A DNA stretch of 57,241 bases, taken from NCBI RefSeq assembly GCF_000153105.1, contig NZ_CH672376.1:2707917-2765157 (forward strand). Direction: 5' to 3'. Numbering within the stretch: the stretch's first letter is position 1; every line of letters begins with the position of its first letter. A program made the translations under genes and the position numbers. Shown here in pieces: positions 10,585-28,525 of this stretch. The DNA is from Blastopirellula marina DSM 3645 (GTDB lineage: Bacteria > Planctomycetota > Planctomycetia > Pirellulales > Pirellulaceae). A model generated the notes under the pieces. That model did not search any database. It was not told where the DNA came from and saw only the letters and a list, made by a program, of their open reading frames with translations.

Positions 10585-10684
10585 AAGACCCGGGGCGCCA
10601 TCATTGCTGTCACGGGGCCCCCGTAAATATCGTTACAACCGTTAGAATCGACTGAAGCGACTTCGGCCGAAGGGCCGATAGGTT

Positions 10685-10736
10685 GACTGTGGCGGCAAAG
10701 TTTACGCGCGAATTTAAACTTTGCCAGATGACAGTC
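10685..10736 (+). promoter_or_regulatory. Strong hairpin between the paired barrel genes
   Basis: A perfect 11-bp inverted repeat (GGCAAAGTTTA at 10694-10704, TAAACTTTGCC at 10715-10725, 10-nt loop) is nested inside a second 6-bp one (GACTGT at 10685-10690, ACAGTC at 10731-10736). It lies 28 nt before the next start codon and has no T-run, so it is not an ordinary terminator. Candidates are a leader-RNA structure, an mRNA-processing site or an operator. Confidence 0.6.
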
Positions 10737-10764
10737 TTCCCCCCTGGACTTCAGGCGATTCAAC

Positions 10765-12201: not shown

Positions 12202-15200
12202 TTAGGCGTCTTCGTCAGCCAACGCTTGATCGACCAACGCAGGATTAAGCAGTTGGAAGATCGGCAGATCCTCGGGAGCGAACAAGAATCGCTTGCCGAC
12301 GTTTAAATGATCGGCGAAGAGGTCGTCTTCGGTCTCGTCCTGATGCGAGATCAGCTCGTGCAAGATCACGGTCAGCAGATCGACCTTGCCGGAAGCGTCC
12401 CCTGCAGACGCATTCCAAGAGTTTTCGCCGCTTGAGCTGAATTCTTCATTCTGCGTCGGCGTGCTATCGACAAACCAGCCATATCCGGCGGCATCGATAT
12501 CCAGATAAAGGATTCCGTTGTTGCGGTAGCTAAGTTGGGATCCGGGCAAATCCACGATTTGGAAATTCGTCGTCACGACGTAATTGAAGATCCCTAGCTG
12601 ACTGTAGGCGTCGGCGATCTTGTCGGCAGCGGCGTCTAGCACCGGTTGCACATCTTCCGGCGTCAGCGAGGTCACCTCGTTGGCCGGCGGAGCGACTCCG
12701 ACAGACAACGGGGTTTGCGAAAGTGCGATGGCCAGATATTGGAAGTCATATTCGATGACATGTCCTTCGACGGCGGCGCTGACGTTGGCTCGCGTTTCAC
12801 CTAGCTCACGGATAAGCAACGAGAAGTCGTAAGTATTCACGACGCCGTTGAGATCAAAGTCGCCTGGGGTCGCGTCAGCCGACGTGTTTCCCAGGTAATC
12901 GTCGCGGAAAATGACAACGTCGGTCAGATCGACTTGGCCGTCATCGTTCAGGTCATAGGTGACCGGCAAGATCTTGGTGGTCGGCAACGCCGTAATTTGG
13001 GCGTCGAGCATTGCGGTGTCGGCCGCTTGAAGCTGAGCGTCGCTTACCGAAAAGAACGCGTCAAACGGAATGCCGTCGCTCTCGACGGATAAGCCGCCGC
13101 CGGCAGACGGTTGAAACCGAATCCGGGCCAGCAAGACGCGCTGGCCAGAGCCGAGTCCCGTGGTTGTCGCAACGGCATTCAGGCCGGTGATCTCGCCGGT
13201 CTCGCCGTTGATTGCGGGTGTGCTGGTGAATTGAAACCCTGCGCCCGGCTCGATCGTGGTTGGATCAAACAGCCCGGGAACAAAGTGCATGTTGAGCGCC
13301 GCGGCGCTGACTCCTTGGGTCGAAATTCGATCGCTGTTGACCCAAACTTCCACCCAGAAAGCGTCCCATTCGTTGAGGTAAGGATCGCTAATCGGCGGCG
13401 GGTCGCCCGCTTCGGTTGGCTCACGCGAGACGGTCACGCCAAAATCTTGGATATCGACGACCGATACCGATACCGTGCCGGTTGCGACCGAAGTACCGTT
13501 GGTGACCGTGTAGATGAACGTGTCGAGACCAGAGAAGCCGGCGGCCGGGATGTAGCGGATTTTTCCGTCTTGGATGGCGATCGCTGCACCGACAGAGGAC
13601 GTGCCGACCGAGGTGATCGACATTCCCATATTGCTGGAGAGAAATTTGTTCAGCCGATCGTTGTTAAGCACGTCGAAGATCGCGACGCCGTCGACATCGA
13701 TCTGGTACGCGTCGGCTCCAGCGACGGCGACCGTGTTGGGTGAAACATTGATCGTGATGGAGGCATAACCTCCGGCGGCGCCGTAGATATTGCTGACTTG
13801 ATAGCCCACCGTGAACGAACCAGAGTAGCCGACCGGTGTGTTGTAGGTGATTACGCCGTCTTGAATGTTCAGCTGAATGCCGGCGGGAATGGAGAGAATC
13901 TCGAGGGTATTCAGATCAAATGCAGGCGCCGACGGATCATCGTTCGCCAAGGGATTAATACTATTGACCGATCCCGCGATCGTATCGAAGGTGTCGTTTA
14001 CCAAGATCGGCGCGACAAAGGCCGAGACGGTGATGACTTGAAAGTCATAGTTCAAGGAACTGGTGCTGAGGAAATCGTAGGCGGCGACGATCACCTGGCC
14101 TTGTCCGCGAAAGCTGGAAGGAACTTGAATCGTCAGCACGCCGGTCGTGTTGTCGACCGAGTAGATCAGCCCGTTGGCGTTGGTGGATTGGATCGGCACC
14201 GGCACCGCCGACAAGCCATCTTTGTCGAGGAATCGAACCGTGTCGCCGTTGGCGTCGTATCCGATCAGACGGTAGGTAAGCACGCTTCCGGGGTGAACGA
14301 TCATGTCAGGAATGTCCCCTAAATAGGCGACCTTGTTCGCCGAAGTGGGGAAATAAGCGACGTTCACTTGTCGACTGAATGTTCGTCCGCTCGCGTCGGT
14401 CGCCGTAATGGTCAACGTGTCGCTACCGGTGACGCCTGCGATGAAGGTGTTTAATTTCACCAACGCATTTTCATAGTCTTGGAAGACCTCGACTTTCTCA
14501 ATAATGACATCCGTCGTGGGATGATCACCGCTGTTGGTCGGGACCTCGCTGATCGCTTCGCGTACGGCGTCTCCCTCGGTCAAATAGCCAAAGATCGTGT
14601 ATTTAAAATCGAGCGATTCTCGTTGCGTCCCTTCGGTGATGAAGAACTGCGAAGAGTTCGTATCGTCATATGATTTGGCCATTCCCAACACGCCGCTGCG
14701 ATTATAGCGCAAATCGAAATCGTACTGGTCGTCGAACTGGGGAATCGTCGGATCGCCGGCGCCGGTTCCCAGCGGATCGCCCCCTTGAATCACGAAGTTG
14801 TCTTTGACGCGATGAAACTTCAAGCCGTCATAGATGCCGGCCTGGGCCAGCGCGATGATTTGATCGGTCGCCAGATTCGCGTAGTCTTCCAGTAGTTGGA
14901 ATTCCATCACGCCAAAGTTTTTGACCGTGATCCGCAAACTGCGAGTCTGTTGGCGGACTTCCGTTAACACGGTGCCGGAACTGCTGGTGACGGTATAGGT
15001 CAGCGCCTCGCCGGTTGGCGAATAGCCGTCGAGAGTCAGAAACAACGGTTCGCCGGCATAGAGCGTGATAGGAGCAATTTCGGCGATGTACGGCGTGGTC
15101 GATGTCGGTACCGTGACGCCGGTATATTGAACCAATTGTTCAATCGTCAGCGTGCCCTCGATTCGCGTATTGTTGGCGAAGATCCAAGTGGGCAGCGCTT

Positions 15201-15624
15201 GAATGCCCAAACTGGAACCGAGATCATTGAGCGTGTGGTCCGCGTTGGTGACTTCGTAGAACGGCAAATAGCTTCCGCCTTCTCCGAAGAATCCCTTTTG
15301 CGCGGTGCAGTGAGGGCACCACGCGGCGCCATAAAATTTGGCGCCAGAGGCCGTGATCGCTTTGGCCAGAGCGACCATGTCGACGTTTTGATAGATGCTG
15401 CCGTTCAGGAAGAGGTCCTCCCCTTCCAGTTCGACGCCAGCGGCATCAAAAACTTCGCGGACTTCAAGCGTTTCGATCAGCCGTTGCGGATGACTGCGAC
15501 GGACTCTACCTGGGGCGGAAACCGGCTGAACTTTGACTCGAGCATGACGCGCGTAGATCATCGCCAGCGCAGAAACGGCGACGAAGCAGACCAAGACAAG
15601 GATGGCGATTTCGGGCGGAAGCAC
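12202..15624 (-). CDS. Thioredoxin-like/cyclophilin/dockerin fusion with degenerate protease domain
   Basis: 1140 residues, GTG start. A membrane segment spans about residues 5-24, then the planctomycete L-E-x-R motif (ETLEVREVFDAAG, about 51-63). A thioredoxin-like domain with WCPHC at 102-106 and a downstream LPTW resembles the domain fused to VKOR homologues. A cyclophilin-type peptidyl-prolyl isomerase follows at about 225-395, with FHR, IQGGDP and SSQFFIT preserved. Ig-like repeats follow (VLNNDRL type). A cohesin-like region (NEWDAFWVEVW) lies near 740-880 and a dockerin near 888-945 (DLNDDGQVDLTD, DFDLNGVVNTYD). The last 150 residues align with the HELGH domain of the gene ending at 183, but here the site reads HELISH (from residue 1089), so zinc protease activity is doubtful. 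Plausibly an envelope-anchored folding factor for exported proteins. That role is inferred. Confidence 0.85.
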   Translation of the reverse strand: MLPPEIAILVLVCFVAVSALAMIYARHARVKVQPVSAPGRVRRSHPQRLIETLEVREVFDAAGVELEGEDLFLNGSIYQNVDMVALAKAITASGAKFYGAAWCPHCTAQKGFFGEGGSYLPFYEVTNADHTLNDLGSSLGIQALPTWIFANNTRIEGTLTIEQLVQYTGVTVPTSTTPYIAEIAPITLYAGEPLFLTLDGYSPTGEALTYTVTSSSGTVLTEVRQQTRSLRITVKNFGVMEFQLLEDYANLATDQIIALAQAGIYDGLKFHRVKDNFVIQGGDPLGTGAGDPTIPQFDDQYDFDLRYNRSGVLGMAKSYDDTNSSQFFITEGTQRESLDFKYTIFGYLTEGDAVREAISEVPTNSGDHPTTDVIIEKVEVFQDYENALVKLNTFIAGVTGSDTLTITATDASGRTFSRQVNVAYFPTSANKVAYLGDIPDMIVHPGSVLTYRLIGYDANGDTVRFLDKDGLSAVPVPIQSTNANGLIYSVDNTTGVLTIQVPSSFRGQGQVIVAAYDFLSTSSLNYDFQVITVSAFVAPILVNDTFDTIAGSVNSINPLANDDPSAPAFDLNTLEILSIPAGIQLNIQDGVITYNTPVGYSGSFTVGYQVSNIYGAAGGYASITINVSPNTVAVAGADAYQIDVDGVAIFDVLNNDRLNKFLSSNMGMSITSVGTSSVGAAIAIQDGKIRYIPAAGFSGLDTFIYTVTNGTSVATGTVSVSVVDIQDFGVTVSREPTEAGDPPPISDPYLNEWDAFWVEVWVNSDRISTQGVSAAALNMHFVPGLFDPTTIEPGAGFQFTSTPAINGETGEITGLNAVATTTGLGSGQRVLLARIRFQPSAGGGLSVESDGIPFDAFFSVSDAQLQAADTAMLDAQITALPTTKILPVTYDLNDDGQVDLTDVVIFRDDYLGNTSADATPGDFDLNGVVNTYDFSLLIRELGETRANVSAAVEGHVIEYDFQYLAIALSQTPLSVGVAPPANEVTSLTPEDVQPVLDAAADKIADAYSQLGIFNYVVTTNFQIVDLPGSQLSYRNNGILYLDIDAAGYGWFVDSTPTQNEEFSSSGENSWNASAGDASGKVDLLTVILHELISHQDETEDDLFADHLNVGKRFLFAPEDLPIFQLLNPALVDQALADEDA

Positions 15625-15915: not shown

Positions 15916-16275
15916 TTAGCCCTGCTGGCGAACCGACGGCAGCATTCGTTTTTGGAAGTCGATTTCCAGATTACCGAACGCCGCTTCATGGCGCTGGACA
16001 GAAACCTGGAGCGCCGCCAGCATGCGCTTCGCCGTGTAATAGTTCAGAATAATACGTTGGCTGACCTTAATCGCGCCTTGCTGAACACCGACCGGTTGCG
16101 TGTTCAAAGCGAAGTCGATGATCAGCTCTTCGGGCGTACCGGTAACGCGACAGAAGTTGGCGTACGAAGCGATGAGCGCGCTTTCGTCCAGTTCGACCTG
16201 TTGTCGCTGGGGAGCGGCGGACTTGGCGGCGGCTTCGGGAGTATTCAGTTCTTCTTTTTCAGGGGCGTCGGCCAT
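15916..16275 (-). CDS. DUF3467 family small protein
   Basis: 119 residues from ATG 16275, preferred to an in-frame TTG at 16299 because AGGAG lies 10 nt upstream. It is cytosolic, with no signal peptide. The body (QQVELDESALIASYANFCRVTGTPEELIIDF, then AIKVSQRIILNYYTAKRMLAAL) matches DUF3467, a short family known from planctomycetes and other bacteria, annotated without a function as far as I know. It begins 166 nt after the M50/HlyD gene on the same strand and precedes a strong terminator, so it may be the last gene of that cluster, although the gap leaves room for its own promoter. Whether it assists secretion is unknown. Confidence 0.8.
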   Translation of the reverse strand: MADAPEKEELNTPEAAAKSAAPQRQQVELDESALIASYANFCRVTGTPEELIIDFALNTQPVGVQQGAIKVSQRIILNYYTAKRMLAALQVSVQRHEAAFGNLEIDFQKRMLPSVRQQG

Positions 16276-16441
16276 TGAGATTCGACTCCTTGTGGGCAAA
16301 GCAATTTGAGCGAAGTGAAACAGATAACGATTAGCTTAGTCAGGCAACCGCAGAGTAAACGACCAATACGTCATTTCTGCGACAGCATTTGGGTTTCGGC
16401 GTCGCCATAATCGCTGGAAACGATACAAGCGGAGTCGACAG

Positions 16442-18694
16442 CTACAGTTTGAAATGGAATGTGCGGTTCACGTATCGCCACATTCGAACGCCGAGCGGCT
16501 CCCAGGCGACGAAGATCTTGGCGCGACCGCGAAGTCCGACGGCGGTCATCGCTTCGGCGTCATCAAGCGGCGCTTGTGCTGGGAAGGTCGCGTTTTGCGG
16601 TCGAGCACGTCCTGACAGCGGATCGGTTTCGGCCGCCAGCTCTCCGCCTTGCGCCACTGTGAGGCTCGTCGGAACAAACTCGACCTGCTTATCGCCGATC
16701 TCGGCCAGCTTGGTTTCGAAAGTTCTGCCCGGAAACGCATCTAGCTTAATATAGACCTCTTGTCCCAGGTGGACCAGTTCCACGTAGTCCTGGTCGACGT
16801 AAATGACCGCTTCCATTTGGTCCGACTGGCCAATTTGGCATAGCGCGTCGCTGGTCGTGACATAGGCTCCTTGGTTTTTCAGCTCAAAGGGAGACCCGGA
16901 CCAGGATGGCAACTGACCTGACCCGGCTTGCGGATCACGGCGATCAGGGGACGGGAAAATGAAACCGCTCGTGGGAGCCGGCACATTGATCAATTGTTGT
17001 TCGGTCCGCTTCTTCTTCAATTGCTCGCTGGCCGATTCCAACTGCTGGCGAACTTCCATATAACGCTGCTCAAATGAGCCGCCGGCCGTGTCGCCCAGAC
17101 GCAAGTGTTGTAAGCTGTCACGCAACTTGGTGAGGCGCTTTTCCTCTTCTTCCAGCTCCGCGATCTGCATCAGCAAATCGTAGTTGACGACCCGAGCGAG
17201 TTGGGCGCCTTTTTCGACGCGTTGACCAGGCTGGACGAGCATTTGCTCCAGCACGCCTGGCACGACGACATAAGCGACCTCTGAATTTTCAGGGCGTACT
17301 TCGACCGGGCAATTGACCCATTGCGGCAATGGAATCAGTGCGATTGCGGCGACTACGCCGACGGCCACGGCGACCGTCGCGAAAACGTTCTTGCGTTTCA
17401 CTTGCGACATTCTCCCCGGCACGTACATGAACTTGCCGAACTTCCAAAGGGGCATGACGACCAGGCCCCACAAGCCCATGATCGCGATCGATTGACCGAT
17501 CACCTTCAAGCCCATCGGCTCGAAGACTTGATTGAGAAAATACAGAATCGAAAACATCACAAACCAACGATAAACGTTGGATGCGATCGTAAATAAGCCG
17601 AACCCCAGCAGATTGCGCTGCGGCAGGAACGGATCTTCTGGTTGCTCTAGACCTAAGCACCATTTTGACATGGAACGCTGCAAGATCGAACTTGCCTTTT
17701 GCCGCATGTTCGGCACTTCCATGATGTCCGACAAGATGTAATATCCGTCGTAACGCAGCAGCGGATTGCCGTTGAAAATGATCGTGCTGATCGAGCTGAC
17801 GAACATCACTTGCAGACAGAGATGATTGAGCAGGCCGGGCTCGCTAAACCACCAAATGAACGTCGCTGTTGATGCGAGAAAGATCTCGATATACATCCCC
17901 GCCGCGCCAATCGCGGCGCGATGCCATTTGTTGGGGAGCATCCACGAGTCGGAAACGTTGCAATACAAGCAAGGAGTCAGCACCAGAAACATGACGCCCA
18001 TTTCGTGGCATTCGCCGCCGAATCGCTTGCACGACAGGCCGTGGCCAAACTCATGGCAGACCTTCGTGACCGCCAGAACGCAGCCCAGCAGCATCCAGTT
18101 GGAAAGTTCCGGGCCAAAGAACTCTTGAAATTCTGGCAACCGACTGCGAAACGTGTCGTACTGAACCAGCACCAACAGCAGCGCCGAGAGTGCGTACAAC
18201 AGCACGAAAATCATCGCCGGCATAGTGAACAGCCAACGCGTGTACGGCATCAGAAAGTTCAGGATCCATTCGGGATCGATTCCCTTAAAGCGAATCGACA
18301 GAATGTTCGACGCCGATTGCACCAGTTCATTCCATTTGCGATCATCACGGCGTTTTTTAAGTTGACGCCCCTGCTCTCGCGATTCGGCGATAATCAATCC
18401 GCTGCGATGCAACGTACCGATAAACTGCTGCAAGTCGCGAAAGCCGATTTTTTGCGGCGCGAACTCTTTTTCAAATTTCTCTTTGATCGTTTCGAGCGAA
18501 GTATGCCCATCCAGCATCATCAGGATGGCGTACTCTTCTTCTTGAAAGCGGAAGTAGTTCAGCCCTAGCGGTTCTTTCACAACCCAGTAGGCGCGCCCCT
18601 GATAATAATGCCGTCGAGCGGTCAGGTCGGGGCGAGCGCGCAGCCCCAACGAACGAGAACTGCTGGCGATCAAACTGTCAGTTAGCGTTGCCAA
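16442..18694 (-). CDS. M50-type membrane protein fused to HlyD/lipoyl adaptor domain
   Basis: 750 residues. The start appears to be TTG at 18694, 12 nt after the upstream stop; no in-frame ATG occurs until about residue 58. Residues 20-115 resemble a PqqD-like/winged-helix domain. Membrane segments cover about 130-440. The zinc site of site-2 proteases is visible: HEFGH at 214-218 and N-P-x4-D at 310-316 (NPLLRYDGYY). Residues 450-750 form a biotinyl/lipoyl-like domain (VEKGAQLARV) with a coiled-coil hairpin (about 500-570) and a second half, as in HlyD-type adaptors. This architecture is known as a putative peptide zinc metalloprotease with HlyD domain. Its position between adaptor genes suggests an inner-membrane component of an export machine that may process substrates. 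That is inference. Confidence 0.85.
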   Translation of the reverse strand: MATLTDSLIASSSRSLGLRARPDLTARRHYYQGRAYWVVKEPLGLNYFRFQEEEYAILMMLDGHTSLETIKEKFEKEFAPQKIGFRDLQQFIGTLHRSGLIIAESREQGRQLKKRRDDRKWNELVQSASNILSIRFKGIDPEWILNFLMPYTRWLFTMPAMIFVLLYALSALLLVLVQYDTFRSRLPEFQEFFGPELSNWMLLGCVLAVTKVCHEFGHGLSCKRFGGECHEMGVMFLVLTPCLYCNVSDSWMLPNKWHRAAIGAAGMYIEIFLASTATFIWWFSEPGLLNHLCLQVMFVSSISTIIFNGNPLLRYDGYYILSDIMEVPNMRQKASSILQRSMSKWCLGLEQPEDPFLPQRNLLGFGLFTIASNVYRWFVMFSILYFLNQVFEPMGLKVIGQSIAIMGLWGLVVMPLWKFGKFMYVPGRMSQVKRKNVFATVAVAVGVVAAIALIPLPQWVNCPVEVRPENSEVAYVVVPGVLEQMLVQPGQRVEKGAQLARVVNYDLLMQIAELEEEEKRLTKLRDSLQHLRLGDTAGGSFEQRYMEVRQQLESASEQLKKKRTEQQLINVPAPTSGFIFPSPDRRDPQAGSGQLPSWSGSPFELKNQGAYVTTSDALCQIGQSDQMEAVIYVDQDYVELVHLGQEVYIKLDAFPGRTFETKLAEIGDKQVEFVPTSLTVAQGGELAAETDPLSGRARPQNATFPAQAPLDDAEAMTAVGLRGRAKIFVAWEPLGVRMWRYVNRTFHFKL

Positions 18695-18706
18695 CGTTAT
18701 GCTCGT

Positions 18707-19666
18707 CTAGTTTCCGGTCAATGCGGCGGGCGACTTTTCGTTCCGGTTGCGGAAGCGATCCAGTTCGCGATCCGAAATCTGCGGACGATCCACGTGCACG
18801 GTGAATCCGGCGATGTCGCCAGGCGAGAGCGCCCAATAGCCTTTGCCGCTCACTTTGTTTTCAACAACCGCCGAAATGTCAAAGGCGCCGGTCGCGTCAA
18901 TCTCGGGACTGATGAAGTTGACGAAGCCGGAGAACTGCTGCAGTCCCGAAGCGGTGCGAACCGAGACCGTCACCGGGCGGTGAATCAGTTGCTCTGGCTG
19001 GTGCAGATCGGCGTCGAGAGTTCCTTCTACTTTCAGCCATTGCAGGCCGATGATTCGCATCAGCGGATCGCCGGGACGAACCCACTCCCCTTCCTGGCGA
19101 TAGACCTGAACGACGACGCCGTTGATCGGCGATTCGGTGCGACAGCGATCCATGACCATCTGCGCTCCTTCCATTTCGGCGAGACTTTCCGACGAGGCCA
19201 GCCCGCTGATTTTTTGGTTCATTGCGGCCTGCTCGATTTGCAACACGGCCCGCTGGTAGGCGAGCCAGGCTTTGTCGAGTTGGATCTTGCTGATGGTGCC
19301 GCGGCTGTCTTTGTTGCTTTGCTCAAAGACTTCGTGTTCTTTGAGAGCGACTTCCGCCGCTTTGGTCGCGTAGCGAACGTCGATATCGTTGGCCGCTTCG
19401 GTCATCGCTTTATCATGACGGAACTTGGCGATCTCCGCTTGTTTGGCGGCGGTGCGGTCATCAATCTGAGCGAGCAAATCCCCATCGACAACAATCCGAC
19501 CGCGATAGGCCGGGATGGTGACTAGCATGCCGGTTTCTTGCGCCGGGACGTTCACCTGATCCAACAACGAGACCAAGCAATGGTTGACGACCACGCCGTC
19601 AGGGCTGGCGGCGGCAGCGGGCGCTTGTCCGACGGCGGCGGCGAGTAAGAGAATAGCGAGCGTCAT
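18707..19666 (-). CDS. Periplasmic HlyD-family adaptor (membrane fusion protein)
   Basis: 319 residues with a cleavable signal peptide (MTLAILLLAAAVGQAPAAAA). AGGAA precedes the ATG by about 10 nt. A lipoyl half-motif (ETGMLVTIPAYRGRIVVDGDLLAQIDDR) leads into a helical hairpin at about 70-160 rich in Glu, Lys and Ala, then the second lipoyl half (SPINGVVVQVYRQEGEWVRPGDPLMRI) and a beta-barrel region. This is the standard order for HlyD/RND periplasmic adaptors, although the protein is shorter than most. It lies 72 nt downstream of the GAF-HlyD gene and 12 nt upstream of the M50-HlyD gene, so the three are probably co-transcribed. Likely role: periplasmic link between inner-membrane and outer-membrane components. 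No TolC-like gene is in the window. Confidence 0.85.
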   Translation of the reverse strand: MTLAILLLAAAVGQAPAAAASPDGVVVNHCLVSLLDQVNVPAQETGMLVTIPAYRGRIVVDGDLLAQIDDRTAAKQAEIAKFRHDKAMTEAANDIDVRYATKAAEVALKEHEVFEQSNKDSRGTISKIQLDKAWLAYQRAVLQIEQAAMNQKISGLASSESLAEMEGAQMVMDRCRTESPINGVVVQVYRQEGEWVRPGDPLMRIIGLQWLKVEGTLDADLHQPEQLIHRPVTVSVRTASGLQQFSGFVNFISPEIDATGAFDISAVVENKVSGKGYWALSPGDIAGFTVHVDRPQISDRELDRFRNRNEKSPAALTGN

Positions 19667-19738
19667 TGAATCTTGTTCCTGAGGATTAGCTGTCTTGAGA
19701 TAAGGCGCGCAATGCGAAAGCTGGTCACGCTGCGTGGC

Positions 19739-21808
19739 TTAAAACAGCACGCGAGACTGGATGAACTCCCAAACCTCGTGCAACCAGGTGTACCCAAGCG
19801 GCGCCGTCCCACAATTGATTTTCGCGGTAGCAGTCGCTCCGGTTCGTAGCTGCGGCATCGCGGCCAATAGTTTTTCTTTGTCGATTGCAACTTTGATGCG
19901 GACGATTTGTCCTTCGTCCGGATCGGCTTGGGCAAGTCGCTGAATCTCGACTAACTTCCCTTCGAGCTGCGTTCCTGGGTTACTGGCCATGATGTAGGTC
20001 ACGTCCAACTCATCGCCCAGTTCCTGTTGAGCGCCGACGATGTGCTGTAGACGCTTCTCCGGCATCTTGACTTCCAGAACCCATTCTTGATTGGGGTCGA
20101 CGACCGTCATCAAGATTTGTCCCGGCGAGACAGGGCGTTGCATCAGCGAGTCGCGAACGTCCCAACTGACGATTTCGCCCGCGATCGGACTGCGAACTTC
20201 CAGAAACTGCTGCTTCTGCGCGAGCAACGCCAACTGGTCGGTCAGTTTGGTGATTTCCATTTCGGCAAGCGACAGGTCAATCGCCAGCTGACGCTTTTCG
20301 TCGTCATCTTTGGCGAAATTGCGGCGGTGAATTAAACCGCGCAGCGACTGCTCCGCTTTCGACTGCTCGCCCAGCAAGCGTTCGTACTGCATATCGAGAT
20401 CCCGGTTGCGCAACTTGGCGACCAATTGCCCCGTTTCGATGAATTGACCATGGCTCACCGGAACATCGACCACTTCCCCTTCTTCGCGGACAAAGATGTC
20501 GCGCTTTTCGATCGGGGTCAGCGTCGCCTGACCAGAGAGTCGAAAGGGGACCTGGATCAAGCAGAGCGCCAAGGTCGCCGCAATCACAGCGACGACAACG
20601 CCGACCGTTTTCGGAAGATTGCGAGCTTCGACCAGCAGTCGCGATTTGGCGAGCAAACGCCACAACGGAGTCAACGGGATATTGTTGTAGTCGATCGCAT
20701 TGGCCAGCGCTCGGCAGCTATGCTCCGAGATCAGCTCAACCCCTTTGCGAAATTCGGCCTGGTTCGAGCTGTCTTCGATTTGCTCGACGATCAGAGCGCC
20801 CAGGATTTCACCCTGGAATTCCCGTTCCTCTTCGCCTTCCAGTTTTTCGTTGGCGTCGGTCGCATGTTCGGGACGACGAAGCGGAATGATCGCGATTGTT
20901 TTGGTGTGCGACTCGTCCACGTAGTCGTGTACGGCCGTTTCCAACTGCGGCGAAAGATCGTCGGTTTGCCCGTTGAACCAAAAGGCCTCGCCGGTATCCA
21001 TGACCGTTTTGGTCAAACCGCCCAGCAGCGTGATCTGGTTGGAGCGCGCGTCGAAGACGTCTTGTCCGCTCACCGCTTCGACTTTCCAGCGCCGTCCGCG
21101 CCGCAATGCGACGCTCACGCGGTCACAGCCGATAAGGCGGCGCCCTTCGTTGGCGATGGTGTAAGCCGTTTGACGAAGATCCAAGTTTTCGTGAACCGCG
21201 CGGGAGAACTGCTCGATCTTCGCCCACAACGACTGGCGGTCCGAGTAGTCTTTCAGCTGACGCGTTTTAAACCATTCGGTCGTCAGCCCGCACATTTGTT
21301 CGAGAAAGCGGAGATAGCCGCGCTGACTCGCGGGTTGCGAGTCAGGACGCTGGAAGATCTCGATAACCCCCTCGACCTCTTGTTCTTCGTTTTTGATCGG
21401 AGCGACCACCAGCAGCGAATTGGTCGGGTTGCCGGAAGCGCCTTCTTCAATCGAACCCGATTGAGGAGCCAGCAGTTGGCCGGGAGCGCCTTTGAACATC
21501 TCTTCGATCAAACGCAGATGGCGAATGCCGTCGGCGTCTTCCGGATCGACCAGACTGCGCGTCAGGTTGACCTGATAGATCAACCGCGGACGGCGCTTCT
21601 CATCGTAGATCCAGACGGCGCCGCCGATCGCGGCCAACGCAGAGACAACTTTTGGCAACATCTCGCGGAAATAATCTTCCGGCGGGACATTCTGTTTCGA
21701 AAGCGCAGCGATCTCTTGGATCAGACTTCGAATCTGTCGCTTCGTGCTTTCGAGTGACTCTGGATTAACCGAGGACGATTCGGAGGACATAGCGGATTGT
21801 TGATTCAT
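19739..21808 (-). CDS. GAF-domain protein fused to HlyD-type adaptor
   Basis: 689 residues, ATG at 21808. Residues 15-170 and about 195-375 form GAF-like regions (the second includes ANEGRRLIGCDRVSVALRRG and GALIVEQIED). A single membrane span follows near 400-425 (VGVVVAVIAATLALCLI). Then come a lipoyl half (EGEVVDVPVSHGQFIETGQLVAKL), a coiled-coil hairpin (about 470-540), a second lipoyl half (SPIAGEIVSWDVRDSLMQRPVSPGQILMTV) and a C-terminal barrel. So a cytoplasmic sensor-like module is joined to a periplasmic adaptor arm. GAF domains bind small ligands or mediate dimerisation; the ligand here cannot be read. The gene lies first in the three-gene adaptor run, 293 nt after the SecA-like gene. 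Confidence 0.85.
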   Translation of the reverse strand: MNQQSAMSSESSSVNPESLESTKRQIRSLIQEIAALSKQNVPPEDYFREMLPKVVSALAAIGGAVWIYDEKRRPRLIYQVNLTRSLVDPEDADGIRHLRLIEEMFKGAPGQLLAPQSGSIEEGASGNPTNSLLVVAPIKNEEQEVEGVIEIFQRPDSQPASQRGYLRFLEQMCGLTTEWFKTRQLKDYSDRQSLWAKIEQFSRAVHENLDLRQTAYTIANEGRRLIGCDRVSVALRRGRRWKVEAVSGQDVFDARSNQITLLGGLTKTVMDTGEAFWFNGQTDDLSPQLETAVHDYVDESHTKTIAIIPLRRPEHATDANEKLEGEEEREFQGEILGALIVEQIEDSSNQAEFRKGVELISEHSCRALANAIDYNNIPLTPLWRLLAKSRLLVEARNLPKTVGVVVAVIAATLALCLIQVPFRLSGQATLTPIEKRDIFVREEGEVVDVPVSHGQFIETGQLVAKLRNRDLDMQYERLLGEQSKAEQSLRGLIHRRNFAKDDDEKRQLAIDLSLAEMEITKLTDQLALLAQKQQFLEVRSPIAGEIVSWDVRDSLMQRPVSPGQILMTVVDPNQEWVLEVKMPEKRLQHIVGAQQELGDELDVTYIMASNPGTQLEGKLVEIQRLAQADPDEGQIVRIKVAIDKEKLLAAMPQLRTGATATAKINCGTAPLGYTWLHEVWEFIQSRVLF

Positions 21809-22102
21809 CGAGAACTTGGGAAGGGATTGGGAACCCGGCTTGGGGGCTCCAACATCAGAATCTTACTACCCACCTTACCAACGGCGAGCGAAAACCGAAA
21901 TCGACGTATTTCAAATCCAATTCAGATCTTTGGGTAATCGCCGGCAATCTGCCGCATCAATTTGATTTTGCGGATTGTCGTGATCGTAACGACTAGCGGC
22001 GATTGAAGTTGAATACGAAAGTAGGAGTGCAATCGCCCAAACAATTGAGACGTTCTGGCTGCGGTTTTCGTTCCGAATAGAACGAGTTTGCGGGACGGTG
22101 CG

Positions 22103-24067
22103 TTAGTCTGGGGAGTCTAGGTAAGGGTCCTGCCCCATTTCGCGGTGCATTTTCTTGCGCATCTTTTCGTGATAGAGCAGCACCTTGCGGTCTCCAAAAT
22201 GCTTGCGTTCGATTTTTCGCTGTGCTTTGCGGAAGAGAGAGGCGTAACTATTGAGTTCGCCGGTCGCTCTTTCGCCGATCGCCGCCAGCTTTTTGGCGCG
22301 GATCGGGCCATAGCCGATTCGAAGGCAATCGTCGTCAAGCGACATGTATTGTCGGACCGAACCAGGATCTCCCTGGCGTCCGCAACGACCGACAAGCTGA
22401 CGATCGATCCGAGCCGAATCGTGTAGTTCGGTGCAAATCACATGCAACCCGCCCAACTCTTTGATCTCTTGCGACAGTTTAATGTCGGTACCGCGTCCGG
22501 CCATATTGGTGGCGACGGTCACTTTGCCGGGGGCGCCGGCGCGAGCGACAATTTCAGCTTCGATCGCGACGTGACGCGCGTTGAGAACTTCGTGGGCGAT
22601 CCCTTCGGCCTCTAATAATTGGGCCAAGTGCTCGCTCTTTTCGATGGTTCGCGTGCCGATCAAGATCGGGCGGCCGATCGCGTGGAGTTCGCGAATCTCC
22701 TCGATGATCGCTTCCCATTTGGCCTCTTCGGTGCCAAAAACGCGATCGGACCATATTTTTCGTTGCACCTTACGGTTGGTCGGACAGCGAATGACGTTGA
22801 TCTTGTAAATCTTTTTGAATTCGGCGGCCGAAGTCGATGCGGTGCCGGTCATGCCGCCCAGGTGCGGATAGCGGATGAACATATCCTGCACGGTAATTCG
22901 CGCTGCTTGGCCGGTGGCGACGGTCACTTCGATCTCTTCTTTCGCTTCGATCGCTTGGTGGATGCCGCCGCTCCATTTTCGACCTTCCGCGAGACGGCCG
23001 GTCGACTCGTCGACGATCACGATCTCGCCGTCATTGATGACGTAATGCTGATTGAAGTGGAAGTCGCGGGCGACCTTGATCGCGCGCTCGATGTAGTCAT
23101 ACAGGTCGACCAGGCCGACCGGATCGAGTTCCGGCGGTTTGGCGAGCCGACGAACGAGTAAGCGACCTTCAATGGTCAGCTCGACCGACTTCCGGTCGTG
23201 ATCGTATTCGTATTCGTCGTCCTCGGTGAATTCTTTCGCCATTTCGGCGGCCCAGCGATAGCATGCGACCGCACGTTCTTCGGCTTCGCCGGGGATCGAA
23301 CTGATGATCAGCGGCGTGCGCGCGTCATCAATCAACACGCTGTCGGCTTCGTCCACTAGACAGTAGTAGGCGCCGCGTTGAACGGGGAGTTCGTTTTGCT
23401 CCTCTTCCTTCGACATCAGCGTACCGAGGACGCCGAGCCCTTGCTCGCGAGTCTGGCGAATCAGCAAGCGGTCGCGGAGAAAGTCGAAGCCGAATTCTTT
23501 CGAGGTGCCGTAAGTGATATCGCAGGCATACGCTTTCCGACGAGCGTCCGACGGCATTTGGCCTTCCACGACGCCGATGGACATTCCCAGCATCTCGTAG
23601 AGCGGCGCCATGATCTCGGCGTCACGTTTGGCCAGATAGTCATTGACCGTGGCCAAGTGAGCTCCGTTGCCAGGCAAAGCATACAGATACATCGGCAGCG
23701 TCGCCGTCAGCGTTTTGCCTTCGCCGGTCTCCATCTCCGCAATCGCGCCGTTGAACATGATCATGCCGCCGATGAGCTGCACGTCATAGTGGCGCATGCG
23801 AATGGTGCGGCGGCCTGCTTCGCGGACCAAGGCGAAAGCCTCAGGAAGCAGCCGAGCTAGCGATTCGCCGCTCTTCGCGCGATGACGCAGACCCAGGCTG
23901 TATTTGCGGAGTTCGCGATCCGATTTTGTTTTGAACTGTTCCTCAAAACGCTCGATCTTGGGGAGTTCGGCAACAAAACGCCCCAGGCCGCGTCCGGTGA
24001 CCCAGCTATACGCGTGGGAGACAGGATCGGCTTTGAAAGTGCGTGATTCGGCGATTTGCGTCGACAT
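22103..24067 (-). CDS. Short SecA-like preprotein translocase ATPase
   Basis: 654 residues, about 200-500 fewer than housekeeping SecA. Motifs present: Walker A GEGKT at 115-119, DEAD-type VDEADSVLIDDARTPLI (about 238-254), GMTGTAS, NMAGRGTDI, and QLVGRCGRQGDPGS of nucleotide-binding domain 2. The preprotein cross-linking region lies between them. The helical scaffold stops after its first long helices, and the helical-wing region and the C-terminal zinc-binding (CxCxSGxxxxxC) tail of SecA are missing. The catalytic core is intact, so it should hydrolyse ATP, probably at the membrane with SecYEG. It is transcribed toward the three HlyD-domain genes, which suggests an accessory (SecA2-like) ATPase for a subset of exported proteins. 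The 293-nt gap after it has no gene that I recognise. Orthology to named SecA2 types is not claimed. Confidence 0.88.
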   Translation of the reverse strand: MSTQIAESRTFKADPVSHAYSWVTGRGLGRFVAELPKIERFEEQFKTKSDRELRKYSLGLRHRAKSGESLARLLPEAFALVREAGRRTIRMRHYDVQLIGGMIMFNGAIAEMETGEGKTLTATLPMYLYALPGNGAHLATVNDYLAKRDAEIMAPLYEMLGMSIGVVEGQMPSDARRKAYACDITYGTSKEFGFDFLRDRLLIRQTREQGLGVLGTLMSKEEEQNELPVQRGAYYCLVDEADSVLIDDARTPLIISSIPGEAEERAVACYRWAAEMAKEFTEDDEYEYDHDRKSVELTIEGRLLVRRLAKPPELDPVGLVDLYDYIERAIKVARDFHFNQHYVINDGEIVIVDESTGRLAEGRKWSGGIHQAIEAKEEIEVTVATGQAARITVQDMFIRYPHLGGMTGTASTSAAEFKKIYKINVIRCPTNRKVQRKIWSDRVFGTEEAKWEAIIEEIRELHAIGRPILIGTRTIEKSEHLAQLLEAEGIAHEVLNARHVAIEAEIVARAGAPGKVTVATNMAGRGTDIKLSQEIKELGGLHVICTELHDSARIDRQLVGRCGRQGDPGSVRQYMSLDDDCLRIGYGPIRAKKLAAIGERATGELNSYASLFRKAQRKIERKHFGDRKVLLYHEKMRKKMHREMGQDPYLDSPD

Positions 24068-24533
24068 AGGCTCTTTAAAAAGGGTTTTTCGCAGCTACTT
24101 AGTATGACTTCCAGCCGCGAAGGTTCCCACCGTCTGGTCGCCGGAAACCTTCGGATTGCCGCCGTTAAAATAGGCAAGATCGGAACGGGGTTGGTTTTGG
24201 CGAGGCAAGGCGGCAAAGTTTGCGCAGATATCCTGTTTGCTCAGTGGAGGATCTCCAACAGATCGATAATTCGGTTTATGACAATGGCCGCGTGCTTTTA
24301 CTTAATCGCTACAGGTCGTTTCGCCGACATCTCTAATACGTCCAGAACAACCGCACTACGCTCGGTAAGCGGAGGTGGTTCGGCCAGTGGCGGACAAGCG
24401 AAGCTGGTGATGAAGCTAACCCTTCGTCGCACCTAAACACACTTGAATTCGCCTCATGCTTGCGGCTCACTCCGCATCGCCCCGGCGCATGGCATGAAAC
24501 ACGTTTGGCAGTCGTAGCGTGCGAGCAAAGATC
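24068..24533. other. Divergent intergenic region between secA-like and BBP7 genes
   Basis: 466 nt with no supported gene. An open frame over 24056-24436 has no homology that I recognise and no ribosome binding site. The region contains GGCAAAGTTTGCGC (24212-24225), whose core GCAAA-G-TTTGC is an 11-nt palindrome and resembles the arm of the hairpin at 10694. Promoters for both flanking genes should lie here, but no clear -35/-10 pair is visible. Confidence 0.45.
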
Positions 24534-25955
24534 ATGAAGCCCAATATATTGATTCTATCGACGGCCTTATCCGCCGTCGCGCTATTCTCGACGCAAGTCG
24601 GCGCTCAAACGCCGTACGCACCGGGCTATCCGCCACAAGCGGCTCCGGCGTATGGTGGTCCAAGCGGATATTCGATGCTGGGTGACGGCAATGCAATGCC
24701 GTATGGTCCAATGGGACCTGCGTCTGGCTATGCCGCGTCTCCGGTCGGATACCAGCAAGGCGCTCCACTTGATTATCAAGACCCGAGCATGCAGCCGATT
24801 CCGGCGACCGATTACGGCGACTACGGTCCGCAAGCGGCGTACGACCAAAGCGTTCTCACGGGTTCGCCGTATGCCGAAACTTGTCAGGACGCATCGTGCA
24901 ACAGTTGCGATCTGCCTCCTCGCGTTTACGGTTCAGCCGACCTGCTGGTCATGTGGCGTAAAAATTCGACCTTGCCGGCATTGTTGACGACAAGCGCTCC
25001 CGCAGATGAAGGAGTCATCGGCGCACCGACCACGCAAACGCTGTTTGGCGGAACCGAACAAGGTCACCCGTTGACCGGCGTCCGATTCACCACCGGGCTG
25101 TGGCTCGACAACTACCAAAACTGGTCGGTTGGCGGTCGCTTTCTAGCGCTGGAACGTGAAGTTCTGGGGATCAATACGACATCGGCTCAGTTCTCGACGC
25201 TCGCCTTTCCGTTCTTTAACACCAACACCGGTACGAACGGATCCTTTGTCGTCGCATTGCCGGGCGCCGGCACCAATGCGGCCGACGACACGTCGGTGAA
25301 CATTCGGAAGACGAATAACTTTTATACCGGCGACATCTTCCTCACGAAGCATATCGTGACGAACCATGCGAATCGCGTCGACTTTGTCACCGGCTATAGC
25401 TTTGCTCGGATCGATGATGCATTGGCGATGAACTCGCAGTTTACGGCAAGAAACGGCGGCGGCAGCTTTCCGCTAAATTCAACGGTCACAACTTCGGACA
25501 ACTTCTTAGCCAAGAACGACTTTAACGGTGGTCAGTTCGGTTTGATCTTCGACTTCCAAGATGGCCCGTTCACCTGGCGTGCTCTGACCAAGATCAGCGT
25601 TGGCGGAATGCATCAACGGATGGCGATCAACGGCAGTCAAACGGTAACGGATCCCTTTGGCGGACCGCCGACGACAACGGGCCAAGGCTATTACGCTCGC
25701 AGCTCGAATAATGGCAACTATCAGCGAGACGTCTTCTGCTATATTCCGGAAGCCAACGTCGACCTGATCTACGCTTTGAACGGCAACTTGGACTTGAAGG
25801 TCGGTTGTACTTACATCTATGTCAGCGATGTCGCTTTGGCTCAAAGCGGCGTACCGGGAACGATCAACCCCAACGGCGGCGATCCGGTCTTCCAGTTCGC
25901 CAGCGACGACTATTGGGCGTTGGGCGCCACGTTTGGTCTCGACTTCCACTACTAA
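24534..25955 (+). CDS. BBP7-type outer-membrane beta-barrel protein
   Basis: 473 residues from ATG 24534; a GTG 15 nt upstream is also possible and would add five residues. The signal peptide is KPNILILSTALSAVALFSTQVGA, followed by Q. A Pro/Tyr/Gly-rich low-complexity segment (about 25-105) and a short Cys cluster (CQDASCNSCDLP) precede the barrel. The barrel begins RVYGSADLLVMW and GVRFTTGLWLDN and ends GLDFHY, in keeping with planctomycete BBP7 barrels. It is a diverged relative of the gene at 54312-55886. It faces the giant dockerin gene tail to tail, with an intrinsic terminator 28 nt after its stop. Likely an outer-membrane structural or transport protein; no substrate can be proposed. 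Confidence 0.85.
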   Translation: MKPNILILSTALSAVALFSTQVGAQTPYAPGYPPQAAPAYGGPSGYSMLGDGNAMPYGPMGPASGYAASPVGYQQGAPLDYQDPSMQPIPATDYGDYGPQAAYDQSVLTGSPYAETCQDASCNSCDLPPRVYGSADLLVMWRKNSTLPALLTTSAPADEGVIGAPTTQTLFGGTEQGHPLTGVRFTTGLWLDNYQNWSVGGRFLALEREVLGINTTSAQFSTLAFPFFNTNTGTNGSFVVALPGAGTNAADDTSVNIRKTNNFYTGDIFLTKHIVTNHANRVDFVTGYSFARIDDALAMNSQFTARNGGGSFPLNSTVTTSDNFLAKNDFNGGQFGLIFDFQDGPFTWRALTKISVGGMHQRMAINGSQTVTDPFGGPPTTTGQGYYARSSNNGNYQRDVFCYIPEANVDLIYALNGNLDLKVGCTYIYVSDVALAQSGVPGTINPNGGDPVFQFASDDYWALGATFGLDFHY

Positions 25956-26050: not shown

Positions 26051-28525
26051 CTAGAAATCCTCGAACGCAACGTCGACATTCGACAAACGGTCGACGATCG
26101 TTTCGATGTCACCGATTAGTCGGAAGATCACCGCATCGCTAGTGTCGGCGATCAGAAGAAAATTCGGATCATTCAGCGAGAAGGTAATTGGCGCAACCAC
26201 CGGATCGGTGCCAGAGTCGTTGTCGTGGTCGATCCGCAAGAATGCCTGGCCCGTTTTGGTGGCCGTATTGAACAAAAATCCTTCGACCGAAAGCAACTCG
26301 TCCCAGCCTTGGTCAGGCGAGTACCATTCCAATTTGCCCTCGTTGCCCGGCTGCTTCGAGACAGCGAACAGAATTGAGTTTTCGCCCACATTCGAGATCG
26401 AATCGTTGGGACCGCGATAAGCCGGCGTTCGTCCTACAAATCCCAGGCCGAGTGCCGGCGGAGTGAGAGTGCTGGGACTGATCGTGATGTTGGAGATCAT
26501 GATCGTTCCATCGCTCATGACTGACACGTTGGGCGGCAGAGCCCCGCCAAACCCGGTGCCGTACGGATAAACGAATTTGGGAGCCGTGATCTTGACCGTG
26601 TAGGTTCCGGCGTCAATTCCAGCGAAATTGAATGATCCGTCCGCTTGCGAACTGAACGTGGTGCCGACAAGCGCTCCGTTACGGTACAGCCCGACCTGAA
26701 TGCCGCCGATGAATTGCTCGGGGCTGGCGCTGTTCCCGGCGTTGTCGTTCCAGACGCCGTCATAATTGACGTCAAAATAGAACCCGCCCGAGATCAAACT
26801 ATTGAACGGAACGCGGATGGTGACAGTCGCCGTATCGGTATGCACGACGTTTTGGTCATCGGTGTAGCTGATGGTGTAGGTGAAGGAATCAAAGCCTGGA
26901 AGCGCCGCACCCTTGTAGAGGAGCGACTTGTTGTCCGCTGAGATTGCTAGGCGACCCTCGGTTACCGCGTCGCCGTCGATAGCTACGATCGTAATTTCGG
27001 ACGCTGCGACGACGCGGCCGCTTTCGGTAGTGATGTAGTCGTTCGCCAACACTTCCAGCGTCACTTCTTCTCCCGGCAGCACCGTGGCGAAGGGTTCGGC
27101 ATTCTCCAGGTCATCCACTGCGATCACCGTGGGCGAAATATTGACCGTGACGGTCGCCGTGTTCGTATTATTGCTGTCGTTCGGATCCGTCAGCGTGTAT
27201 TCAAATACCTCGGTTCCTGCGCGGTTCGTCGGCAATCGGTAGACGATGTATTCATCGGAAAGATTGGGAAGACCAGCCACTGGATATTCGGCCGTCGTTC
27301 TCACCATCACGCGACTCTCGAGATCGGCGATCGAGGTGAGTGCATCCAGACCGTAGTTAGCACCCAGGGTCAGATCGACGCCGGCGCCCATCACGAGCGG
27401 ATTGCCGCTGAAGTCCGTGTCGTTCGCTTTGACGTCAATGACGAGATACTGCTCGCCATCAATCTCGACAACATGGGGGTCATCAGCGGCGATCTCATCA
27501 ATCAGGTCGGCCGAAACGCCGACGACGTCATTGTTGGCGCCGGGAACTGCTTCGACGGTGATCGTGATCATGGGGAACGCGATGTTCACGACATCCAAGG
27601 GATCCTCATTGTCGGGATCTGGGTTGACCAGATCTTTGAACACGATCGCCGACTGGTTCACGTCTTTCGAATCGGGATCGTTATCGTCGACCGTTGCATC
27701 GGCGAAGAGCCCTTGTAGCGTGAACGTTCCCGTCGAGGTCGGCGTAAAATCAATCGTGTAGAGAACCTGGTCAGCGGTCCAACCGCCTGGCAGGGCATTC
27801 CCGTTACTAATGGCGGAGGTCCCGCCGGCGTTTTTGATGAGGCCTGTGCTGGTGACCCCGATCTGCACAGTGCCGGGACCGAAGTACTCGCCCAAAGTTC
27901 CGGGCTCATTCGGTTGGACGACTAAAGGATCGAATCCAATATCCAGAAAGGCGCCGGTGATATCCGGGGTGTCAAGATCGCCGCCGGTGAGCGCCGAAGT
28001 ATTGCGTACGGTGACGACCAAAGTGAAGACGCTTTGTTCGACATTAATCGAGATCGCCGGTCCGGCGTCCGGATCATTGTTTCCGTCAAAACTGGTGCTG
28101 GTCTTTCCCAGCGACTTACCGTCTTGCAAGATCTCGAAATTAAATGCGGCCGAATAGGAACTGTCCGCATCTTCCGCTTCAATCAAGGACTCTAGCATCC
28201 TAGTGATGTCGAGCGGATTGAAGACCCCATCGTTATTTACATCGAGAAACAGAACCTGCTCCCCTTCGAGACCGCCGGCGGTCTGGGAGGTTTGCATGAA
28301 GGAGCGGTTCCCCTGCTGAATCTGGGCAATCATGATCTCCAGATCGGCATTGTCGACCTTTTGATCGTCGTTCACATCAAGCCCCATGCTGGGGTTATGC
28401 CAGGCGTTCAGATCAGCCGCCAGCATCGCGCGGGGCTCGAGGGCCTCCATATTGGCGCCAACCGTCCGCGAGGAGCGGCGAGTGGATGGGCGGCGGTTCG
28501 AGGCAGATTTATTTCGCTTTTTCAT
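26051..28525 (-). CDS. Dockerin protein with N-terminal dockerin and SdrD-like domain
   Basis: 824 residues from ATG 28525; upstream in-frame residues look like untranslated sequence, since from this ATG the protein begins MKKRNKSASNRR like its relatives. The basic leader ends in the canonical motif MEALEPRAMLAADL (26-39). A dockerin lies directly after it at about 40-110 (DVNDDQKVD, then DVNNDGVFNPLDI), which is an unusual place; its first loop has Gln where Gly is expected. A cohesin-like region follows (about 130-290: FLDIGFDPLVV, ITIDF-type strands), then cadherin-like or VCBS-like repeats (about 310-590) and an SdrD B-like domain (GGFYFDVNYDGVWNDNAG, DGSFNFAGIDAGTYTVKI). The C-terminal region (ILFAVSKQPG) is not recognised. 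Probably an extracellular structural protein. Confidence 0.85.
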   Translation of the reverse strand: MKKRNKSASNRRPSTRRSSRTVGANMEALEPRAMLAADLNAWHNPSMGLDVNDDQKVDNADLEIMIAQIQQGNRSFMQTSQTAGGLEGEQVLFLDVNNDGVFNPLDITRMLESLIEAEDADSSYSAAFNFEILQDGKSLGKTSTSFDGNNDPDAGPAISINVEQSVFTLVVTVRNTSALTGGDLDTPDITGAFLDIGFDPLVVQPNEPGTLGEYFGPGTVQIGVTSTGLIKNAGGTSAISNGNALPGGWTADQVLYTIDFTPTSTGTFTLQGLFADATVDDNDPDSKDVNQSAIVFKDLVNPDPDNEDPLDVVNIAFPMITITVEAVPGANNDVVGVSADLIDEIAADDPHVVEIDGEQYLVIDVKANDTDFSGNPLVMGAGVDLTLGANYGLDALTSIADLESRVMVRTTAEYPVAGLPNLSDEYIVYRLPTNRAGTEVFEYTLTDPNDSNNTNTATVTVNISPTVIAVDDLENAEPFATVLPGEEVTLEVLANDYITTESGRVVAASEITIVAIDGDAVTEGRLAISADNKSLLYKGAALPGFDSFTYTISYTDDQNVVHTDTATVTIRVPFNSLISGGFYFDVNYDGVWNDNAGNSASPEQFIGGIQVGLYRNGALVGTTFSSQADGSFNFAGIDAGTYTVKITAPKFVYPYGTGFGGALPPNVSVMSDGTIMISNITISPSTLTPPALGLGFVGRTPAYRGPNDSISNVGENSILFAVSKQPGNEGKLEWYSPDQGWDELLSVEGFLFNTATKTGQAFLRIDHDNDSGTDPVVAPITFSLNDPNFLLIADTSDAVIFRLIGDIETIVDRLSNVDVAFEDF

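Follow-up and report, generated by a model that had tools for sequence, protein, structure and literature searches.

A stretch of 57,241 nucleotides from Blastopirellula marina DSM 3645 (NZ_CH672376.1, 2,707,917 to 2,765,157; this whole stretch is called the window) carries a cluster of five genes, encoding a short SecA, a GAF-HlyD protein, a periplasmic HlyD adaptor, an M50-HlyD protein and a DUF3467 protein, among genes for large proteins with an N-terminal LEPR-XLL leader. The machine is a real conserved gene set, known since 2015; its link to LEPR-XLL proteins is new and well supported. Judged from gene content and neighbourhood, the cluster probably provides those components of a type I-like export route that sit in the inner membrane and periplasm, with the LEPR-XLL leader proteins as the cargo. 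The most likely mode of action would be RRE-guided, type I-like export of these proteins, driven by the short SecA in one of the branches of the machine.

22103-24067 (-): short (wing-less) SecA, 654 amino acids; SecA_DEAD 361 bits, preprotein cross-linking domain 89 bits
19739-21808 (-): GAF-HlyD protein, 689 amino acids; GAF part and HlyD part
18707-19666 (-): periplasmic adaptor (HlyD/RND_mfp), 319 amino acids; hydrophobic N-terminus
16442-18694 (-): PqqD/M50/HlyD (M50-HlyD) protein, 750 amino acids; PqqD/RRE-like, M50 and HlyD parts
15916-16299 (-): DUF3467 protein, 127 amino acids, or 119 from an internal ATG; 75.7 bits
15814-15843 (-): terminator-like hairpin 3' of DUF3467, 12 pairs then five U; -27.9 kcal/mol, z -5.0

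A first reading made from the sequence alone (the sequence-only reading) had suggested that this could be an undescribed route, but the locus and the idea of SecA as its ATPase were published by Kamneva, Poudel and Ward (Kamneva et al. 2015, PMC4452313). The main text of that paper describes, in Planctomycetes, Proteobacteria and others, a conserved neighbourhood of a wing-less second SecA, M50/HlyD, HlyD and GAF-HlyD genes without an ABC transporter, with OEP (TolC-type) proteins in some loci and with partner genes elsewhere in some genomes. It suggests that SecA is the ATPase and that M50 forms the membrane part, names no cargo and states that the wider role is not known; none of the words DUF3467, PqqD, leader or giant occurs in it. 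The B. marina genome conforms to this description, having a second SecA_DEAD protein without a SecA_SW domain, and linked M50+HlyD, HlyD and GAF-HlyD genes in the window. Relative to the locus as set out there, two things are new: the link to the leader, and a branch that lacks SecA yet lies next to leader genes. A literature search, whose coverage excluded preprints and most subscription papers, returned no publication linking the locus to LEPR-XLL proteins.

Association of LEPR-XLL proteins with the machine genes

Seven window proteins carry an N-terminal LExR motif, mostly preceded by a basic stretch, which corresponds to the LEPR-XLL motif of NCBIfam NF012209 (also Planc_extracel, PF07595). 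These models name the motif; the term LEPR-XLL occurs in two publications, and the passage on it in one of them includes no export route. The sequence-only reading had placed seven large proteins with a shared leader around the cluster and called such proteins giant; the number and the leader are correct, and 'giant' suits some of the seven but not the 624-residue protein.

183-8684 (-): leader protein LELRELL, 2833 amino acids; cadherins, dockerin
12202-15624 (-): leader protein LEVREVF, 1140 amino acids; weak thioredoxin-like, cyclophilin, Ig-like repeats, dockerin
26051-28621 (-): leader protein LEPRAML, 856 amino acids; dockerin; top LEPR-XLL model score in the window
29005-30879 (+): leader protein LEAREVL, 624 amino acids; dockerin
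30940-33699 (+): leader protein LESRLNF, 919 amino acids; dockerin
34016-48172 (-): leader protein LESRQLM, 4718 amino acids; GEVED, PPC (just below cut-off), dockerin
49402-53922 (-): leader protein LEARMVM, 1506 amino acids; subtilase, GEVED, dockerin

Against NF012209 (cut-off 17 bits), the 856-residue protein scored 17.4 bits in the genome search and 15.5 bits as a protein fragment, and the 1506-residue protein scored 16.2 and 14.4 bits, respectively; the other five gave no match as protein fragments.

Co-occurrence was assessed in 149 Planctomycetota genomes, in 32 of which M50-HlyD was called at E<1e-30, ten more with weaker matches being counted as lacking it. NF012209 was above its cut-off in 16 genomes, 15 of them among the 32 with M50-HlyD (p 5e-11), and 17 of the 133 genomes not over this cut-off have M50-HlyD. 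A leader profile (A3) matched 25 genomes at E<=1e-3, 23 with M50-HlyD (p 1e-17), and 31 genomes at E<=0.01, 24 with M50-HlyD (p 5e-15). Leaders had been expected by the sequence-only reading to be scarcer where the machine is missing, and at E<=1e-3 A3 found them in 2/117 genomes without M50-HlyD versus 23/32 with it. The A3 counts are weakened by partial circularity, as 19 of the 29 A3 rows were taken from beside M50-HlyD genes (7 in the window), and for this reason the comparison was repeated with a ten-row profile made from NF012209 matches only, which at E<=0.01 matched 19 genomes, 16 with M50-HlyD (p 3e-10). Looser counters were discarded: PF07595 was above cut-off in 2/149 genomes only (both with M50-HlyD) and at E<=0.1 was too loose, matching 38 genomes, 14 with M50-HlyD by hand count; NF012209 at E<=10 matched 122/149 genomes and is useless without its cut-off; and A3 at E<=0.1 matched 69 genomes.

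Shared ancestry together with gene-rich surface loci could produce such an association with no functional tie, given that the genomes are related and the leader genes cluster among themselves. Against this, within the seven families that include both kinds of genome, the A3 leader was found in 8/10 genomes with M50-HlyD versus 0/9 without it (p 7e-4), and NF012209 in 6/10 versus 0/9. The same pairing on proteobacterial plasmids and a leader subtype that tracks the machine branch across phyla, both described below, also oppose this explanation, and we consider it highly improbable.

Physical linkage was measured for leader matches at E<=0.01 in 24 M50-HlyD genomes, with a distance limit of 15 kb. 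A leader lay within this limit of a machine gene for 23/76 matches and in 11/24 genomes, compared with 1.2 expected. When the five genomes whose A3 rows had been picked beside M50-HlyD (G107, G094, G005, G126, G037) were left out, the count was 6/19 versus 1.1 expected (p 2e-4), and when the window's genus was also left out it was 4/17 versus 0.7 expected (p 0.004). In our view, it is the non-circular tests that carry the proposed link between the leader proteins and the machine.

The same operons were found in Alpha-, Beta- and Gammaproteobacteria, so the system is not confined to planctomycetes as first supposed. The plasmid loci were picked as M50 or SecA matches (16 regions of 80 and 131 records), a selection that lowers their weight as evidence. 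Their usual order is giant protein, DUF3467, GAF-type HlyD, PqqD-M50-HlyD, short SecA, HlyD and sometimes TolC, occurring with variations in Methylosinus, Pontibrevibacter, Mesorhizobium, Pseudosulfitobacter and Pseudohalocynthiibacter, and in Thalassospira, where the stretch contains no SecA. Another arrangement, likewise lacking SecA, has the order giant protein, TolC, HlyD, HlyD, M50-HlyD (Azospirillum, Kosakonia, Variovorax), with a small protein in place of the giant in Magnetospirillum. TolC is encoded within the locus in Methylosinus, Thalassospira, Azospirillum, Kosakonia, Magnetospirillum and Variovorax. The giant protein directly upstream of the machine genes bears the leader in 8/8 annotated loci whose N-terminus was fetched, reading IEPR in Thalassospira, MEPR in Pontibrevibacter and either LEPR or LEAR in the remaining six. 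These giants have 2,347-16,239 residues, and their genes are co-directional with the next gene and -4 to 116 nucleotides from it. Among five further records, the giants of Rhizobium, Ensifer and Cupriavidus carry the leader, that of Pseudohalocynthiibacter has a YEPR variant (YEPRLLLSAD), and in Indioceanicola the leader is on the open reading frame preceding the one adjacent to the machine. In Tistrella the leader is on a gene downstream of the machine; for the Rhizobium johnstonii locus, the upstream side across the record start was left out.

Two individual loci contain further features. A 48.7-kb Variovorax gene (L198, CP063167.1, 19413-68132), directly upstream of TolC-HlyD-HlyD-M50, encodes a 16,239-residue tandem-95 repeat protein with the leader LEARYMFDAAA. 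In Pseudosulfitobacter (L187, 16179-17000), a SapC-family gene lies between M50-HlyD and the short SecA.

The M50-HlyD protein, the short SecA and the two branches

The M50-HlyD protein consists of a PqqD/RRE-like domain (~25-103), an M50 site-2 protease with intact motifs (HEFGH at 214 and NPLLRYDG at 310) and an HlyD half (~450-735). Residues H214, E215, H218, N310, P311 and D316 are invariant in 30/30 aligned relatives; the Pfam M50 score of the window protein, 25.0 bits, is just below the cut-off of 27.2, and 29/30 relatives match at E<=0.01. In the AlphaFold model, residues 25-103 form three strands and three helices followed by another, short strand (bbb-aaa-b), with a mean pLDDT (predicted local distance difference test) of 85. 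Pfam PqqD was matched at E<=0.05 by 20/32 M50-HlyD N-termini, and other Pfam winged helices by one each. A profile of these 32 N-termini searched against solved structures gave PqqD (3g2b) as the best match (E 0.0012) and, third, TfuB1 (6jx3, E 0.013, positions 8-100), a lasso-peptide leader binder; the profile also matched PqqC/D (5sxy, E 0.022). In the biosynthesis of peptides, domains of the PqqD type serve to bind leader peptides. Profile and model point to a PqqD/RRE-like domain in M50-HlyD, and leader binding is its presumed role. A Foldseek search with the whole model returned MacA/MexA-type adaptors, aligned to the C-terminal half, among the 50 best matches, in which the PqqD and M50 parts were unmatched.

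These features could also be read as those of a system that matures and exports a small peptide of the RiPP type (ribosomally synthesized and post-translationally modified peptide), the giants being mere neighbours. The closest M50 model is that of the daptide protease (daptide_HExxH, NF041824; 177 bits, more exactly 176.8), which aligns with residues 31-414 including the PqqD-like part; the YydH/LiaK NCBIfam model scores 44 bits, and a PqqD/RRE domain and HlyD are present. The daptide score is nevertheless far under the cut-off of 300, one weak methyltransferase is the sole modifying enzyme among the 17 window proteins scanned (small open reading frames were not searched for precursors), and giant leader genes are the recurring operon partner on plasmids, which together make a small-peptide system very unlikely. 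The M50 core is thus alignable with the daptide model, whereas the protein differs from the daptide and epipeptide M50 proteases (NF041824, NF058609) in its fused HlyD half and in its proposed cargo of giant proteins rather than small peptides.

The short SecA retains the motor motifs GEGKT at 115, DEAD at 239, GRGTD at 524 and GRCGRQGD at 560. It comprises nucleotide-binding domain 1, the preprotein cross-linking domain and nucleotide-binding domain 2 (matches to PF07517, PF01043 and PF21090), and a wing/scaffold domain is absent from its Pfam matches. Because the last aligned position of the short-SecA family profile corresponds to about residue 608 of Bacillus subtilis SecA, and given the domain limits of SecA, the family presumably stops close to where the scaffold helix begins and has no helical wing, two-helix finger or C-terminal linker. 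B. marina encodes one other SecA, a full canonical SecA that lies in a 1240-residue frame. As in Gram-positive bacteria with an accessory SecA2, a second SecA is present; unlike SecA2, it is without wing and finger, has HlyD/M50 partners and scores far below the cut-offs of the SecA2 models, none of which was reached (TIGR03714, 552/930; TIGR04221, 452/725; TIGR04397, 625/1085; NF012136, 439/1100). The short SecA co-occurs with M50-HlyD in 20/21 genomes scored as having it, the exception being G071. In G137 and G087 only 1.5-1.7 kb separate it from a leader, and the contig that carries both has no M50-HlyD match, which ties SecA itself to the cargo. The family has been hidden by record annotations, which name it 'prepilin peptidase' in the plasmid records NZ_AP022333.1 (L183) and NZ_CP085155.1 (L187) and 'DEAD/DEAH box helicase' or hypothetical elsewhere.

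A tree of 57 M50-HlyD N-terminal parts, in which stretches ending at contig ends may hide a SecA, separated two main forms of the machine. The SecA branch has 23 rows, 21 with SecA in the stretch. The SecA-less branch, which has a support of 100/100, comprises 12 rows, and SecA is absent from the stretch in all of them; it lies beside leader genes and contains members of three planctomycete families (f33, f7 and f36) and the proteobacterial TolC-HlyD-HlyD-M50 loci. The window protein belongs to a third group of 14 rows, in which only the window's genus has SecA alongside. In family f2 of this group, a short SecA is encoded elsewhere in the genome in 5/6 sampled genomes; none was found in the genome of G024, and G048 was placed by search rather than in the tree. 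The remaining rows without SecA form small groups. As one branch without nearby SecA sits beside leader genes, SecA is ruled out as the universal motor; in G005, G094 and G126 the best short-SecA profile match (no better than 1e-97 to 1e-102) is at the level of canonical SecA. With SecA linked in only 6/80 planctomycete loci as well, the suggestion of the sequence-only reading that SecA may be the ATPase is not supported as a general rule.

The leaders differ between the branches. After LExRxLL, S or N follows in 8/9 leaders beside the SecA branch and D in 9/10 beside the SecA-less branch (p 0.001), and a leader ending in AD was found in 8/9 and 0/10, respectively (p 1e-4). The leader therefore varies with the M50-HlyD branch and persists without SecA, which points to M50-HlyD as the putative reader of the leader.

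Organization of the locus

All five machine genes lie on the - strand and have the domains originally assigned to them. The intergenic gaps of 72 and 12 nucleotides were reproduced, whereas we counted 294 instead of the claimed 293 and 142 instead of the claimed 166 nucleotides, the latter figure being correct if DUF3467 begins at its internal ATG. HlyD domains are present in three cluster proteins, and in GAF-HlyD a single strongly hydrophobic segment (19-residue windows starting at 397-408) separates the GAF and HlyD parts. The absence of an ABC transporter was borne out for the window, where the Pfam domain scan covered 17 proteins and found an ABC domain in none; the search did not extend to the remainder of the genome. 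Because of the hairpin after DUF3467, the machine transcript probably ends there and the leader gene at 12202-15624 is probably on a separate transcript. One operon of all five genes and the leader genes is ruled out by this strong hairpin and the 294-nucleotide SecA gap. A consensus terminator scan did not list the hairpin, and promoter-like sites were as frequent as in shuffled sequence. The structure model of DUF3467 has three strands and a long helix (pLDDT 71), with no PDB match at E<=0.001 and none in a sequence search of solved structures; a SecB-like chaperone was set aside for want of a structural relative in the PDB and remains a guess.

The sequence-only reading had made its proposal depend on synteny in relatives. 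For 80 planctomycete M50-HlyD genes from alignment A1, partners within 8 kb on the same strand were HlyD (65), GAF-HlyD (54), DUF3467 (26) and short SecA (6), with one further short SecA on the opposite strand. When only the 48 loci for which at least 6 kb of upstream sequence was available are taken, the numbers become HlyD 42, GAF-HlyD 40, DUF3467 20 and short SecA 6. The clustering is more than chance; most of the five genes are syntenic, SecA least so. Gene order was read along transcription in 40 stretches from B. marina and other genomes of the phylum. The order DUF3467-GAF-M50-SecA recurs in three stretches (L053, L058, L049), followed by HlyD in L058 and L049, and M50-SecA-HlyD-GAF was seen in L071. 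The window order, SecA-GAF-HlyD-M50-DUF3467, was found elsewhere only in G121, of the same genus.

A second cluster in the B. marina genome (L033) contains GAF-HlyD, HlyD and M50-HlyD without SecA and is followed by a leader protein. No TolC was seen in the window; the genome has 19 OEP domain matches, and the one nearest to a cluster is 7 kb from the second M50-HlyD gene. Two further leader matches in this genome, G000:C2:3676610 (E 0.0015) and G000:C1:184533 (E 0.0026), are far from either cluster; the open frames that contain them are 9116 and 6121 residues long, respectively.

Other features accompany the leader genes. Dockerin type I is above the Pfam cut-off in all seven leader proteins, and cohesin was found in 0/17 scanned proteins. 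The 1140-residue protein, with a WCPHC thioredoxin-like motif and a cyclophilin domain, may be a surface folding catalyst for exported giants; a leader protein of similar length and leader occupies the matching position in G121 (L035). Four porin-like proteins with ordinary hydrophobic signals are encoded among the leader genes (9121-12165, 24519-25955 and 54312-55886), matching BBP2 twice and BBP7 twice, one just below cut-off.

A proposed export route

The leader proteins might instead cross by canonical SecA-SecYEG or another route, the cluster acting afterwards, with the protease trimming or releasing them and the HlyDs anchoring or assembling them at the surface. The cluster has no obvious translocase pore, one branch lacks SecA, many leader genes are not linked to the machine, a membrane segment is present in one leader protein and the genome encodes a full canonical SecA, all of which would suit such a route. 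However, a Sec-type hydrophobic core is absent from 14/15 leader N-termini (best 11-residue Kyte-Doolittle mean <=1.64, compared with 2.35-2.87 for five control proteins of the window, four porin-like and the periplasmic HlyD). This hydropathy measure, taken over the stretch that begins at the first residue and extends slightly beyond the motif, is a rough substitute for a signal-peptide predictor. The short SecA also occurs in operons with a giant leader gene, one such operon including TolC, and HlyD/MacA-type adaptors, recognized here by the Foldseek match and from family knowledge, normally build conduits. On balance we consider the canonical route unlikely.

In the type I-like route that we favour, unfolded cargo would be presented in the cytoplasm, DUF3467 perhaps acting as a small chaperone or adaptor. 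The leader, often a basic stretch followed by LExRx and two hydrophobic residues, would dock on the PqqD/RRE-like domain of M50-HlyD, whose M50 membrane domain would gate or form the entry and whose intact HExxH/NPxxxxDG site may clip the leader. The HlyD half, GAF-HlyD and the free HlyD would together span the periplasm and connect to an outer membrane channel of the TolC type, which is encoded in the operon in several proteobacteria and would be encoded elsewhere in the genome for the B. marina route. In one branch, the short SecA, with its motor motifs, would feed the chain by ATP hydrolysis, and the SecA-less branch must draw on another energy source. Type I secretion (ABC, HlyD and TolC) resembles this arrangement in its HlyD adaptors, in the TolC of the proteobacterial operons and in its very large adhesin-like cargo. 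It differs in its ABC transporter, of which there is none among the genes scanned here, and in its C-terminal signal, as opposed to the N-terminal leader, in a comparison that covers N-termini.

Several observations weigh against the proposed route. The PqqD score of the window protein (18.5 bits) is below the Pfam cut-off of 23.4, and DNA-binding winged helices are among the same PDB matches (FurB, E 0.0068; MarR, 0.025). The 1140-residue leader protein has a hydrophobic segment (3.46) upstream of its leader. The G107 leader (LDAV) breaks the SecA-branch pattern, and the window's seven leaders mix both subtypes (LAAD, MDAA, FDAA and others). On listed coordinates, 53/76 leader matches are >15 kb from machine genes. 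The A3 leader at 1e-3 is missing in 9/32 M50-HlyD genomes (G023, G024, G026, G031, G075, G081, G090, G093 and G130) and is present in G003 and G118 without M50-HlyD; G044 is positive for NF012209 without M50-HlyD, and 1/14 named control genomes is above the NF012209 cut-off. The ten-row profile has three exceptions (G039, G050 and G118), in which the matches mostly cover the stretch before the motif, and the 492-residue neighbour of the Magnetospirillum machine has no leader.

A more far-reaching version of the type I-like route can be put forward tentatively. In this version, the system would be independent of SecYEG, and a RiPP-type recognition domain on a membrane protease/adaptor would use the LEPR-XLL leader to select proteins that reach ~16,000 residues in length, driven by a finger-less SecA motor in one branch and by another energy source in the other. 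Divergence of the leader together with the domain would have given rise to two codes, LLSAD and xFDAA.

The association joins a secretion machine published in 2015 without a cargo to surface proteins that have a named leader domain and no route. Both questions become testable in culturable hosts (Rhizobium, Ensifer, Azospirillum) and in planctomycetes. If the RRE reading is true, leader recognition from peptide biosynthesis would have been reused for protein secretion.

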